A DNA stretch of 64,000 nt from Luteimonas sp. MC1825 (GTDB lineage Bacteria; Pseudomonadota; Gammaproteobacteria; Xanthomonadales; Xanthomonadaceae), in NCBI RefSeq assembly GCF_014764385.1, contig NZ_CP061714.1, forward strand, positions 1,550,001-1,614,000. The letters are read 5' to 3'. The notes under the pieces are model-generated. The model had not been told where the DNA came from. It did not search any database and saw only the letters and a program-made list of their open reading frames with translations. Every line of letters begins with the position of its first letter. Positions within the stretch are counted from its first letter, which is position 1. Positions 59,924-63,753 of this stretch are shown piece after piece. Made by a program: the position numbers and the translations under genes.

Positions 59924-60973
59924 TCACAGCACCGCAAGCGCGCGGTTGTCGAAATGCCCCGGGAAGCCCGCGGCCACTTCCAGCTTGCGTTCGATCGACG
60001 CCACGATCCGCTCCGCGAAGTTGACCCCGGCCAGCGCGCTGCACGAGCCGAGGTTTCCGGGCGAGAACACGTTCACCTCGAGGATGGTGTCGCCGATGAT
60101 GTCGATGCCGACCAGGAACATGCCATCTCGCACCAGCTTCGGCCGGATCAGTTCGGCGACGCGCAGTTCGCGCTCGGTGATGCGCACCGGCTTGGCCTTG
60201 CCACCGGCGTGGATGTTGCTGCGGATGTCCTCCTTGGCGCCGACGCGGCGCATCGCCGCGTACTTGCCGTCGACTTCGAGCGGCACGCCATTCATCAGGA
60301 ACAGGCGGATGTCGCCCTTCTCCGCTTCGGGCACCCACGCCTGGGCGATGATGTAGCCGTCGCGGCCGATCGCCTCGATCATCTGGTTGAGGTTGCCGCC
60401 GGACTTCTGGTCCACCAGGAACACACCCTGCCCGCCCGAGCCCTGCAGCGGCTTGAGCACGATGTTGCCGGCATGCCGCTTGGCGAAGGCCTTGATGTCT
60501 GACGCCTGGCGGCTGATCAGGGTCTCGGCCCGCACCGCGCGCGGGAACGACTGGAAGTACAGCTTGTTGGCTGCCTTCGCCAGCGCGTCGGGGTCGTTGA
60601 GTACCAGGCAGCCACGCATGGCCGCCAGTCGGCCGAACTGGACGCCCACCGATTCCGCCCAAGGCCGCGTCGCCGCGTCGTTCGACGGGTCGCTGCGCAG
60701 CATCAGCACGTCGATGTCGGTGATGTCGACCAGCTTCTTGCGGGTGACGGCCTGCAGGTCGGCGAAGAACTTCTCCTGCGTGCGCTTGCCGGTTTTCTGC
60801 GCCGGCACGAGGTGCACGTGTGCGCGCATGCGGTCGTCGTTGCCGAGCACGAAATCGCCCGGCGTCATGTAGCAGACGTCGTGGCCACGGCGAGATGCCT
60901 CGTGGGCGAGCACGGTGGTGGTGTAGCCGGCGTACTCGGTTTCGAGGTCGTTGACATAGAAGGCGATCAGCAT
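59924..60973 (-). CDS. Glutathione-synthase-like ATP-grasp ligase
   Basis: The 349-residue protein follows the GshB layout: an N-terminal domain (FYVNDLETEYAGYTTTVLAH, LMLRSDPSND), then the ATP-grasp domain with NIVLKPLQGSGGQGVFLVD and the Mg-binding FLVGIDIIGDTILEVNVFSP. Automatic annotation would call it glutathione synthase. It differs from E. coli GshB in the substrate-binding loops (AKEDIRSNIHAGG, and NVFSPGNLGSCSALAG in place of NVTSPTCIREIE), is about 30 residues longer, and is adjacent to the DUF1704 gene (four bases apart). It may therefore ligate a different amino-acid pair or a peptide. A true gshB could exist elsewhere in the genome. Confidence 0.85.
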   Translation of the reverse strand: MLIAFYVNDLETEYAGYTTTVLAHEASRRGHDVCYMTPGDFVLGNDDRMRAHVHLVPAQKTGKRTQEKFFADLQAVTRKKLVDITDIDVLMLRSDPSNDAATRPWAESVGVQFGRLAAMRGCLVLNDPDALAKAANKLYFQSFPRAVRAETLISRQASDIKAFAKRHAGNIVLKPLQGSGGQGVFLVDQKSGGNLNQMIEAIGRDGYIIAQAWVPEAEKGDIRLFLMNGVPLEVDGKYAAMRRVGAKEDIRSNIHAGGKAKPVRITERELRVAELIRPKLVRDGMFLVGIDIIGDTILEVNVFSPGNLGSCSALAGVNFAERIVASIERKLEVAAGFPGHFDNRALAVL

Positions 60974-60977
60974 GGTT

Positions 60978-62855
60978 TCAGCCCTGCACAAGTTCGAGGA
61001 AGGGTTCGCCGCCGCGCACGCGCGCCAGCCGGGCACGCGCCTCCGGCCGCGAGAGGAATTCGGGTAGCACGGCCGGCTCGCGCAGGATTCCGCGCGCGCG
61101 CAACTCATCGACCACCGGGACATGGGAGGCGGCGATCTTGCCGGTCCAGAACGCGTCCAGCGGCTTTCCACCGGCGACCCAGGCAAAGACCTCGTTCAGC
61201 CCGCGCAGGTAGATCGCGTCCTTGGCGAGGCCACCGGAGCGGAACACACGGGCGACGACGGTGAACGCGGCACGCGCACCGAAGCCGTGATCGCGGCGCA
61301 GCATGCGATCGCAGTCGACGAACCCCGCGCCGTCGAGCATCGCATCGACCACCACCACCCGCGCCGCGAGCAGCCGCAGGCGCGACCGACCCAGGCCGCC
61401 GACAAGGAACTCCGCGAACACGCCAAGGCCTTCCTGGATACCCTCGTAGCCGGCAAGGCCGCTGCCGAAGATCGACAGGCCCTGCGCGCCGCCGTTGACG
61501 CAGGTGAGCACGTGCACGCCGATTTCGTGCTGCAGCAGCGCATCCAGCCGCCAGCGGCGCATGCGCGTGGCGGTGGACACCAGCACCGAGCGCCCCGACA
61601 CCATCAGCCCGGGGGCGATGTCGTCGCGCAGGCAGACCTCGGCCTTGAACAGCGGCGCCTTGTGCCGGTAGCCGGCAATCACGGCTTCCGCGGCTTCGCG
61701 CACCGCGTGGCAATCGACACAGGCGGTGTCTTCGCGATCGTCGGTGGCGTCGACGCGCGCGAGGATCCCGCGCGCCTCCTCCAGCAGTGGTGCCTCGATG
61801 GCGCCGTACTGGATGATCGAGGCGTATTTGAACGCCGGCGTGTTGCGGCCCTGGAGCATGGTCAGCTGCAGGTCGAGCTCGCGTTGTTTCTGCAGGAACA
61901 GCTGTTCAAGCACGGGATCTTCCACTGCGCGGACGTCGATCGAGTACAGCGCGCGCTTGGAGAGTTCGGGACTGACCGTCAACGGCCGGTAGCGGAACTC
62001 CGGCGCATGCTCGCGTCCGGCAGCGTGGTAGCGCTCCATGGCCTCGACGGTGTTGATCGGCGAGACCGAGAGCAGGAAATCGAACGACGCGCTGATGGCC
62101 GCCAGTTCGCGGTCGACGGCCACCGCGGCCTTGATGAAGCGGCTGCGCCCCAGGGTGCGGTGCGGAACGCGGATGCCTGGCGTGGCGGCCTCGACGAATG
62201 CCGCCAGGGCCTGCAACACGGCATCGAAGGCGAGCGTTTCCAGCTCCTGGAACACCTGCGGATAGACCGCATCGCTGCCCGGGGCGAGGTAGATCCGCGG
62301 CAGACCCAGCGACAGCACGCCGATGCCGTCGCTGCGTTCCACCAGGGCGGCGAGCGCCGCAGGCAGGTCGGGCACGCCGGACTCTTCGATCACGGCTTCA
62401 CGAAGCTCGATGCAGGCCCCGGCCAGCGCGACCCGCAGGCGGCGTGCGGCGGCGTGGGCCGCAGCCCCGCCGCTTGCCGACACGGTGAAGCGGAACGGCT
62501 CCAGGCGTGTGCTGTCCTCGGCGATCGAAGCATCGCGTGGCAGGTCGTGCAGCCACAGCAGCAGGTAGTTCGGGAAGTCACGGACCTGGTGCGCCAGCAC
62601 CGCATCGAGGCGCGTGACCGCGCCGGCATCGGCGTCGCCACCCTCCGGCCACACCAGGTGCGCCGCGCTGATGGTGGCCAGCCGGCGCGCGATGCTCGCG
62701 GCGGCGTCGGCATGGCGGTTCAGCACCAGGAACGGCAACGGCCGGTCGATGTGCACGCGCCCGCCGGCGTCGAGCTCGCGGCGCCAGGCGCCCTGGCCGA
62801 AGTCGGGTGCCGGCGGCTTCTGCACGCGCGGCGCGGGGTGCGCGGGCTCAGGCAT
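60978..62855 (-). CDS. DUF1704 / QEGLA-motif protein, putative zinc metallopeptidase
   Basis: This is a 625-residue protein of the DUF1704 (TIGR02421, flavohemoglobin-expression-modulating QEGLA motif) family. The zinc site is visible: HExxxH at 443-448 (LLQHEIGVHVLT) and QEGLG at 474-478, whose glutamate should be the third ligand. VEAMERYH, YNR-like KYASIIQYGAIEAP and GYRHKAPLFKAEV belong to the same domain. Eukaryotic DUF1704 proteins (MATCAP) are peptidases that remove C-terminal tyrosine from tubulin. The start at 62855 (MPEPAHPAPR) overlaps the upstream amidohydrolase-like gene by eight bases; the frame continuing to 63998 is antisense noise. Substrate in bacteria is unknown. Confidence 0.88.
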   Translation of the reverse strand: MPEPAHPAPRVQKPPAPDFGQGAWRRELDAGGRVHIDRPLPFLVLNRHADAAASIARRLATISAAHLVWPEGGDADAGAVTRLDAVLAHQVRDFPNYLLLWLHDLPRDASIAEDSTRLEPFRFTVSASGGAAAHAAARRLRVALAGACIELREAVIEESGVPDLPAALAALVERSDGIGVLSLGLPRIYLAPGSDAVYPQVFQELETLAFDAVLQALAAFVEAATPGIRVPHRTLGRSRFIKAAVAVDRELAAISASFDFLLSVSPINTVEAMERYHAAGREHAPEFRYRPLTVSPELSKRALYSIDVRAVEDPVLEQLFLQKQRELDLQLTMLQGRNTPAFKYASIIQYGAIEAPLLEEARGILARVDATDDREDTACVDCHAVREAAEAVIAGYRHKAPLFKAEVCLRDDIAPGLMVSGRSVLVSTATRMRRWRLDALLQHEIGVHVLTCVNGGAQGLSIFGSGLAGYEGIQEGLGVFAEFLVGGLGRSRLRLLAARVVVVDAMLDGAGFVDCDRMLRRDHGFGARAAFTVVARVFRSGGLAKDAIYLRGLNEVFAWVAGGKPLDAFWTGKIAASHVPVVDELRARGILREPAVLPEFLSRPEARARLARVRGGEPFLELVQG

Positions 62856-63669
62856 CCGCCAGCCACTCGCGGGCATGGGCCGCCGCGGCATCGACCAGGC
62901 GGCGCATGCCCGCAAGCTCCGCAGGATCCGGAACGCCGGTCCATTCGTCCATGAAGGTCTTCTTGAACTCCAGCGCGATCGCGCAGCCGGTTTCCGGATA
63001 GCGCGCATGCACGAAGCGCGCGAGCTCGCCTCGTCCCTGGAAGGCGATGTTCTCGCGCACGTCGGCCTGGCGGCCGTTGAAGTCGACCGCGCGCATGGTG
63101 TCCATGAGCGGGTCGAGCAGGCCCGCCCAGCGCCCGCGCGGCATCGACCAGCTGCCGATGTTGACCTCGGGCGCATCCTCCGCCGGCGTCGCCGCGGCGG
63201 CCGGGCCATCGCGTCGATGGTTGTAGCTGTGCACGTCGAACACCACGAACCGGCCGTGATGGCGCACGAGGTCGTCGAACACGGTGGCGAGGGTGCGATA
63301 GAAGGCGTGGTGCAGGCGCAGCGACTGCTGCACGAAGGCCTCGTCCGGCGGCGCGTCCCACAGGCGAAGGCCCCAGCACTGTTCCGGCACGCGGTACACG
63401 GCCTGCTCCACCCCGCGGTTGAGGTCGACCTCGAACCGCGAGCGGTGCACCACCACACGGCCCGGCACGCCGGCGATCGCCTGCCCGGTGAACGGGTCCT
63501 CTTCGCGCAGGCGCTCGTCGTCTGGCAGGCGCATCGCGGCCGCGACCTCCGGGCGCAGTGCGTGCCCGTCGTGGATGGCGGTGGCGAACACCGGGTCATC
63601 GGCGCGCTGCAGCGTCCACCAGGCGGTGGCATGCGGCGACAGGGGCGCGGACGGATCGACGGTGGCCAG
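62848..63669 (-). CDS. N-formylglutamate amidohydrolase-like protein
   Basis: The protein belongs to the PF05013 family of zinc amidohydrolases. Visible metal or active-site candidates are His in ATAIHDGHALRPEV and His in FDVHSYNHRR; ALEFKKTFMDEWTG ends the core. The coding signal (WWTLQRADDPVF) extends upstream of the only conventional in-frame start, GTG at 63591, back to the previous stop at 63754. A CTG at 63669 has GGAG with a six-base spacer and is given here as the start (273 residues); the GTG would give 247. It overlaps the DUF1704 gene by eight bases, so the two are coupled. The usual substrate N-formylglutamate arises in histidine breakdown, but no hut genes are near. Confidence 0.78.
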   Translation of the reverse strand: MATVDPSAPLSPHATAWWTLQRADDPVFATAIHDGHALRPEVAAAMRLPDDERLREEDPFTGQAIAGVPGRVVVHRSRFEVDLNRGVEQAVYRVPEQCWGLRLWDAPPDEAFVQQSLRLHHAFYRTLATVFDDLVRHHGRFVVFDVHSYNHRRDGPAAAATPAEDAPEVNIGSWSMPRGRWAGLLDPLMDTMRAVDFNGRQADVRENIAFQGRGELARFVHARYPETGCAIALEFKKTFMDEWTGVPDPAELAGMRRLVDAAAAHAREWLADA

Positions 63670-63753
63670 GGCGGGCTCCAGGTTTTCGCGCCGCGATGGC
63701 GCGGCACCGCCTGTTCTATCCGCCGCGACGTGATCGGGATGTGGCCGCGGGAC

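Follow-up and report, generated by a model that had tools for sequence, protein, structure and literature searches.

A recurrent operon of a GshB-like ATP-grasp ligase, a MATCAP/DUF1704 protein and an FGase-like amidohydrolase, with a possible role in low-salt and ion homeostasis

Within a 64,000-nucleotide stretch of the Luteimonas sp. MC1825 genome (contig NZ_CP061714.1, positions 1,550,001 to 1,614,000; hereafter the window), we confirmed a compact three-gene operon with intact motifs, which encodes a GshB-like ATP-grasp ligase, a predicted zinc metallopeptidase of the MATCAP/DUF1704 family and a predicted zinc amidohydrolase of the N-formylglutamate amidohydrolase (FGase) family. The linkage of the three genes is real and, because it recurs in dozens of genomes, is not a product of chance. 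We directly observed conserved co-localisation, gene fusion, intact motifs, a ligase clade separate from GshB and, in several phyla, local enrichment of MscS and CorA genes. By established family chemistry, the ligase is predicted to form amide bonds at the expense of ATP, and the other two proteins are predicted zinc-type hydrolases. Co-occurrence, fusion and tandem ligases suggest one pathway that adds and removes residues. We regard the chances as evenly balanced that the module acts as a cassette of ligase and hydrolases for building and trimming a short chain of amino acids and is tied to low-salt and ion homeostasis; the reactions, step order, acceptor and physiological role in this host are what we infer from these patterns.

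Architecture of the operon

All three genes lie on the minus strand and are transcribed in the order FGase-like, MATCAP, ligase. As the first-pass annotation of this DNA had described, they overlap or nearly touch: the FGase-like and MATCAP open reading frames (ORFs) overlap by 8 bases, and a gap of 4 bases separates the MATCAP stop codon from the ligase ATG at 60973; the ligase ends at 59924. The genes and the motifs discussed below are as follows.

62848..63669, minus strand: FGase-like protein (N-formylglutamate amidohydrolase family, PF05013), predicted zinc amidohydrolase, probable CTG start
60978..62855, minus strand: MATCAP/DUF1704 (QEGLA) protein, predicted zinc metallopeptidase of ~625 aa (PF08014, TIGR02421)
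61512..61529, minus strand: HExxxH motif of MATCAP (HEIGVH), residues 443-448
61422..61436, minus strand: QEGLG motif of MATCAP, residues 474-478; its Glu is the putative third metal ligand
59924..60973, minus strand: GshB-like ATP-grasp ligase, 349 aa, of a non-canonical clade (PF02955, NF009110)
60425..60454, minus strand: conserved glycine-rich loop of the ligase, KPLQGSGGQG
60200..60226, minus strand: ligase loop signature IRSNIHAGG (TRGNLAAGG in canonical GshB)
60044..60073, minus strand: ligase signature NVFSPGNLGS (NVTSPTCIRE in canonical GshB)

The ligase is distinct from canonical GshB

The ligase matches PF02955 with 170 bits and exceeds the cut-off of NF009110, the subfamily that carries the name glutathione synthetase (435 bits; cut-off 408), but it falls below both GshB equivalog cut-offs (TIGR01380, 206 versus 299 bits; NF003573, 221 versus 272 bits). 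It shares with GshB (PF02951/PF02955, TIGR01380) the domain order, the glycine-rich loop and acidic and Asn residues near the C terminus, which we take to be the metal site. It differs in belonging to a clade of its own and in reading RSNIHAGG for RGNLAAGG and SPGN for SPTC. The altered substrate loops noted in the first-pass annotation are confirmed: all 36 aligned ligases of the clade share an invariant R-S-N..GG and S-P-G. In the alignment, the displayed canonical GshB rows carry RGNLAAGG and SPTC, whereas module and Vibrionaceae-type rows carry RSN-HAGG and SPG; the window's ligase reads IRSNIHAGG and SPGNL. Work on E. coli GshB indicates that these segments shape the active site.

A maximum-likelihood tree of 92 proteins placed 52 module ligases, including that of the window, on one side of a branch with support of 100/100, and 27 canonical GshB proteins on a separate branch (100/98). 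Thirteen Vibrionaceae-type ligases formed a third branch (100/99), whose placement relative to the other two is unfixed in this unrooted tree. The tree drew on 45 of the 89 full-length module ORFs that the neighbourhood clustering described below had yielded, together with six further proteins and the window's ligase. A 942-aa ORF was removed from the initial 93 rows; the tree holds three groups and no outgroup, and the meeting of long branches was flagged.

In the host genome, a single contig of 2.9 Mb, a separate and better GshB match lies at C1:2207917, which ruled out the ligase as the genome's gshB, and a second, canonical-GshB-like match was present in 25 of the 25 same-genus genomes searched. 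Judged from its sequence, the ligase is thus not a canonical GshB, because it fails the equivalog cut-offs, lies in a separate clade, has altered loops and shares its genome with another GshB. The same evidence bears on the proposal that it serves as an additional or alternative glutathione synthetase, or as a ligase for a glutathione-like low-molecular-weight thiol, whose product the two hydrolases would recycle. The name of NF009110 favours that proposal, as does a profile search of PDB sequences, in which the matches were GshB, RimK and alpha-glutamate ligases and the nearest solved structure was E. coli GshB (1gsa). Against the equivalog scores, the changed signatures, the separate clade and the second GshB, we give it the lowest probability of the explanations considered here.

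The ligase-MATCAP-FGase linkage recurs in many genomes

Note that Luteimonas-type, Vibrionaceae-type and Magnetococcales-type are taxon labels inferred for the compared genomes. The clade ligase is present in 23 copies among 41 relatives, 22 of them whole and one a fragment at a contig edge, and each copy has a MATCAP match on the same strand 44-254 bp upstream. Twenty-four PF08014 matches below 300 bits in these relatives were linked to the ligase, two of them deriving from a single broken gene in G001, whereas all 26 matches above 350 bits were unlinked; therefore, two MATCAP subfamilies exist, a module type and a standalone type. The 26 unlinked matches also ruled out the idea that every DUF1704 gene is linked to the ligase. 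The broken gene (G001:C15:6818-7779) is a module MATCAP that was matched in two pieces with an internal stop and is either truly broken or misassembled.

Across 299 genomes of the phylum, a ligase above the NF009110 cut-off was found in eight and any MATCAP in 29; within the G282 family, such a ligase was found in 13 of 61 genomes, including all 11 of genus g173. The loci around 29 further MATCAP genes from the 299-genome search were inspected with flanks of ~1.5 kb. The ligase adjoins MATCAP in five of these (L165, L166, L168-L170), one (L156) has a weak, 47-bit ligase-like match on the other strand, and 23 have no ligase within the flanks, including one module-type MATCAP (L167).

For a broader set, named genome contigs were scanned with a Magnetococcales query ligase; at least 571 relatives matched, and the 80 loci with the best scores were taken, which are not a random sample. 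Their labels include Poribacteria, Acidobacteria, Planctomycetes, Verrucomicrobia, Gemmatimonadetes, Calditrichaeota, Bacteroidota, Chloroflexi, Actinobacteria, Deltaproteobacteria, Magnetococcales and others. Both MATCAP and FGase lie within 5 kb of the ligase in 57 of the 80 loci, with MATCAP on the opposite strand in four of the 57 (L116, L125, L139, L143). MATCAP is the sole partner in nine loci, seven of which have less than 4.5 kb of upstream DNA; FGase is the sole partner nearby in six; and eight have neither, four of them with short upstream DNA. Tandem copies of the ligase occur in 11 loci, as expected of successive additions. The gene order differs in Vibrionaceae-type genomes, in which the ligase is followed by FGase-MATCAP, a single ORF in L038 (661 aa) and L173 (668 aa, with both Pfam domains) and two ORFs in L176. 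The first-pass annotation had proposed co-occurrence of DUF1704 with this ligase clade and with the amidohydrolase as a check. Neither of the two outcomes that it had named as refuting its proposal was obtained, the ligase lying outside the canonical GshB clade in a genome with another GshB. Linkage to the ligase proved consistent for the module-type MATCAP but not for the standalone subfamily or, within its flanks, for L167; the FGase is a frequent partner that is even fused to MATCAP.

A LysR regulator was considered as a further module member and rejected: all 12 Vibrionaceae-type loci from L047 to L058 have it, yet L038 lacks it. LysR stands beside a DUF413-family gene in four regions, L173-L176 (L173:7621-8989 and equivalents; Pfam-tested in L173), and this neighbourhood, which we take to be the hdfR-maoP site, probably marks an insertion site of the module. 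Two module copies lie ~42 kb apart in each of G019:C5 and G003:C2.

Features of the two predicted hydrolases

The MATCAP protein scores 263 bits against PF08014 (cut-off 27) and, marginally, 340 bits against TIGR02421 (cut-off 338.65). The intact HExxxH motif and QEGLG glutamate reported in the first-pass annotation hold up: H443, E444, H448 and E475 are invariant across 34 aligned sequences, including that of the window. When 76 clustered MATCAP ORFs, truncated ones included, were scanned for motifs, HExxxH was found in 73 and a QEG-type motif in 60. In a profile search of PDB sequences the protein matches human MATCAP (PDB 7z5g) with 43 bits, and the single-sequence comparison gives 13.5 bits (E 0.2). 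Human MATCAP is described as having tubulin carboxypeptidase activity (PMC10499314). The HExxxH, (Q/E)EG Glu and KDxxYL elements align with the human member of the MATCAP/TMCP tubulin carboxypeptidases (KIAA0895L, PF08014); in contrast to these, the bacterial protein has an extra N-terminal region of ~275 aa ahead of the Pfam domain and is linked or fused to FGase.

The host genome encodes a second, standalone MATCAP paralogue (C1:333572-334645; L005:1117-2616). The ORF before it, which it overlaps, resembles the GTPase RsgA (recognised by eye), and a homologue of this RsgA-like ORF is found in five of the 29 fetched MATCAP loci (L158-L161, L164).

The first-pass assignment of the third gene as N-formylglutamate-amidohydrolase-like was borne out by a PF05013 score of 72.4 bits (cut-off 28.9) and by H33, D145, H147 and E234, which are invariant in 33 aligned sequences. 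Searches with this protein gave no match in NCBIfam and none among PDB sequences. Members of the type found in the window differ from the general family in sitting with the ligase and, in Vibrionaceae-type genomes, in being fused to MATCAP. The gene probably starts at a CTG codon (63669; window 63669-63681), because no ATG, GTG or TTG start covers the conserved N terminus: none of these codons occurs between the upstream stop (63756) and the GTG at 63591, and a start at that GTG would lose a stretch conserved among relatives.

A proposed ligation and trimming cycle

In the cassette that we favour, the ATP-grasp ligase would form an amide bond between an acceptor carboxyl group and one amino acid, or several in turn. 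MATCAP, as a member of a metallo-carboxypeptidase family, and FGase, as a member of a zinc amidohydrolase family, would break such bonds or trim the product. The resulting cycle of addition and removal would serve low-osmolarity adjustment and ion balance. A small peptide or metabolite is a likelier acceptor than a protein, given that the ligase resembles GshB most closely and that no recurrent protein partner was seen across phyla. A more far-reaching form of this idea, which we put forward only tentatively, is a pan-bacterial peptide-ligation and trimming system that would write and erase an amino-acid tag, carried by a small peptide or by envelope or channel proteins, and so set turgor and ion flux when salinity drops.

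The component families were already known; their combination in one trio, how widely it is spread and the osmotic genes around it are apparently undescribed, in that our literature search found no description of them in open papers, and earlier mention elsewhere is possible. If the proposal is correct, the present names, glutathione synthetase for one protein and "flavohemoglobin expression-modulating QEGLA motif protein" for the other, are misleading, both proteins being parts of one system. After RimK-RimB and Rlo, this system would be the third pairing of a ligase with hydrolases, linked to adaptation to low osmolarity, and the MATCAP peptidase family would gain a bacterial context in which to seek its original substrate.

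Osmotic and ion-transport genes accompany the module

Genes near the module were surveyed by clustering the ORFs of 84 loci and naming each cluster by Pfam on a single representative. After the three module genes, the ranking clusters were the mechanosensitive channel MscS (22 loci), an APC/SLC12-like transporter (15; its representative has a strong PF00324 match and an SLC12 domain below the cut-off), CorA (12), MgtE (11, in a cluster that also includes shorter ORFs) and CNNM/CorC (6). General families also recur, namely ABC ATPases (14 loci) and sigma-54 activators (12; cluster 7). Magnetococcales-type loci combine MscS with CorA (L040, L041) or CorA with MgtE (L042).

Enrichment was assessed in 44 of the 80 loci (44 of the 45 with at least 15 kb of DNA). 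Of the 27 candidate MscS ORFs tested, 26 were positive for PF00924; they come from 16 of the 44 loci, which carry seven phylum-level labels and include four Poribacteria loci, and the count leaves out a 58-aa ORF at the edge of L077. The expectation was 0.78, derived from 192 whole-genome hits in the 44 genomes and the 881 kb of the 44 loci, although observed and expected counts stem from two kinds of Pfam scan. CorA was found in 7 of the 44 loci versus 0.23 expected (53 hits in the same genomes). Both expectations assume uniform gene density and ignore kinship. The frequent position of the module among osmotic and ion genes in many phyla, a context that the first-pass annotation had missed, hints at a system for coping with changing salinity.

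Published expression data point the same way. In PMC10308900, which compares Photobacterium damselae at 1% and 3% NaCl, expression is higher at 1%, 38.4-fold for A0J47_RS17020 ("GshB") and 27.5-fold for A0J47_RS17025 ("QEGLA motif protein"). These consecutive tags appear to be the same pair of ligase and FGase-MATCAP, matched by locus tag and product name rather than by sequence, in one RNA-seq comparison. An aquatic genome survey found glutamate-modification genes, including K05844 (RimK), to be commoner in brackish than in marine genomes (PMC10219603). As for the rlo genes, whose counterparts adjoin the module in Magnetococcales-type loci (see below), PMC12239564 reports that P. aeruginosa without its three RloA proteases fails under hypo-osmotic stress and that loss of RloB or of the ATP-grasp RloC rescues it.

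Several results weigh against the favoured explanation, in addition to the simplifying assumptions behind the expected counts and the name-based matching of the P. damselae pair. The trio is not obligate: the six FGase-only loci lack MATCAP nearby, and MATCAP was absent from the whole genome in all five of these genomes that were searched; furthermore, four Poribacteria loci with ample upstream DNA (L089, L102, L124, L136) have neither partner, and their genomes gave no MATCAP match. When the recurrent ion-gene families were used in tblastn, nothing was found in the window, in the Luteimonas-type loci L046 and L177-L181 or in the Vibrionaceae-type loci L038 and L173-L176, except at the far end of L178, where a partial MscS was matched. 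The window's module is instead flanked by sugar genes (GH1, a 6-phosphogluconolactonase-family protein and a UgpC-type ATPase), and a solute-binding protein, a glucoamylase and a LacI regulator follow past the window edge. Lastly, no small substrate gene recurs across phyla among ORFs of at least 55 aa present in at least four of the 84 clustered loci.

Two alternatives draw on the same neighbourhoods. By analogy with the Kef potassium channels of E. coli, which are gated by glutathione adducts, the module might make and destroy a small peptide that gates neighbouring channels, and GshB-like chemistry together with MscS, CorA and MgtE neighbours would suit such a role. However, the recurring channels belong to various families rather than to one obligate partner, and tblastn found none beside the window's module; we judge this explanation very unlikely. 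The other alternative holds that the genes form a catabolic or otherwise unrelated cassette for N-acyl peptide breakdown, in which the ligase is a salvage step and the osmotic neighbours reflect general stress islands. The FGase family is named after an amidohydrolase of amino-acid catabolism, and the module of the window does adjoin sugar-utilisation genes. Tandem ligases and wide conservation nevertheless fit synthesis better, and MscS and CorA lie far above genome density, which leaves this a faint prospect.

A YtxH-like small protein recurs in six loci, all of them Poribacteria. Small lysine-rich proteins without a Pfam match are encoded near the module at L042:3576-3914 and L039:11563-11802.

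Comparison with protein-modifying ligase/hydrolase systems

The first-pass annotation, which as a whole is partly supported, had drawn a parallel with eukaryotes, in which an ATP-grasp ligase adds and MATCAP removes the C-terminal tyrosine of tubulin. The parallel holds at the level of folds only: MATCAP matches the human protein with 43 bits by profile, and tubulin-tyrosine ligase (TTL) was absent among the PDB-sequence profile matches of the ligase with E up to 1. A protein-directed form of the cycle would have the ligase add one or more residues to a protein C terminus or a Glu side chain, MATCAP remove them and FGase trim. Membership of the tubulin carboxypeptidase in the MATCAP family speaks for such a scheme, as do RimK-RimB and the Rlo proteins of Pseudomonas, which likewise pair ATP-grasp ligases with hydrolases. 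In the same low-salt P. damselae data (PMC10308900), RimK is 52-fold higher at 1% NaCl.

Unlike these systems, the module has MATCAP and FGase as its hydrolases rather than retropepsins, and its ligase is GshB-like; the retropepsin family PF05618 is not represented among the window's three genes, the remainder of the host genome not having been searched for it. Further points against protein modification are that GshB, and not TTL, is nearest to the ligase among solved structures and that the neighbourhoods of the 84 clustered loci yielded no protein partner recurrent across phyla. In addition, the six of 80 loci with ligase and FGase alone, together with the five MATCAP-free genomes, mean that MATCAP cannot be a universal eraser. 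We therefore consider protein modification unlikely and retain the small-molecule cassette as the preferred explanation.

Genes resembling rloABC, whose products are a retropepsin, an inactive transglutaminase with seven transmembrane helices and an ATP-grasp protein, adjoin the module in Magnetococcales-type loci, directly downstream of the ligase (L045:4765-7777, L064:1120-4117, L065:2685-5673), which counts in favour of the low-osmolarity role as well as of the protein-directed scheme. They were identified in L045 by Pfam (PF05618; PF14400 and PF14402; PF14397) and in L064 and L065 by tblastn. As a general partner of the module the rlo genes were rejected, being confined to Magnetococcales-type loci and L080, where they lie ~8 kb away; L066 shows weak partial rlo matches.

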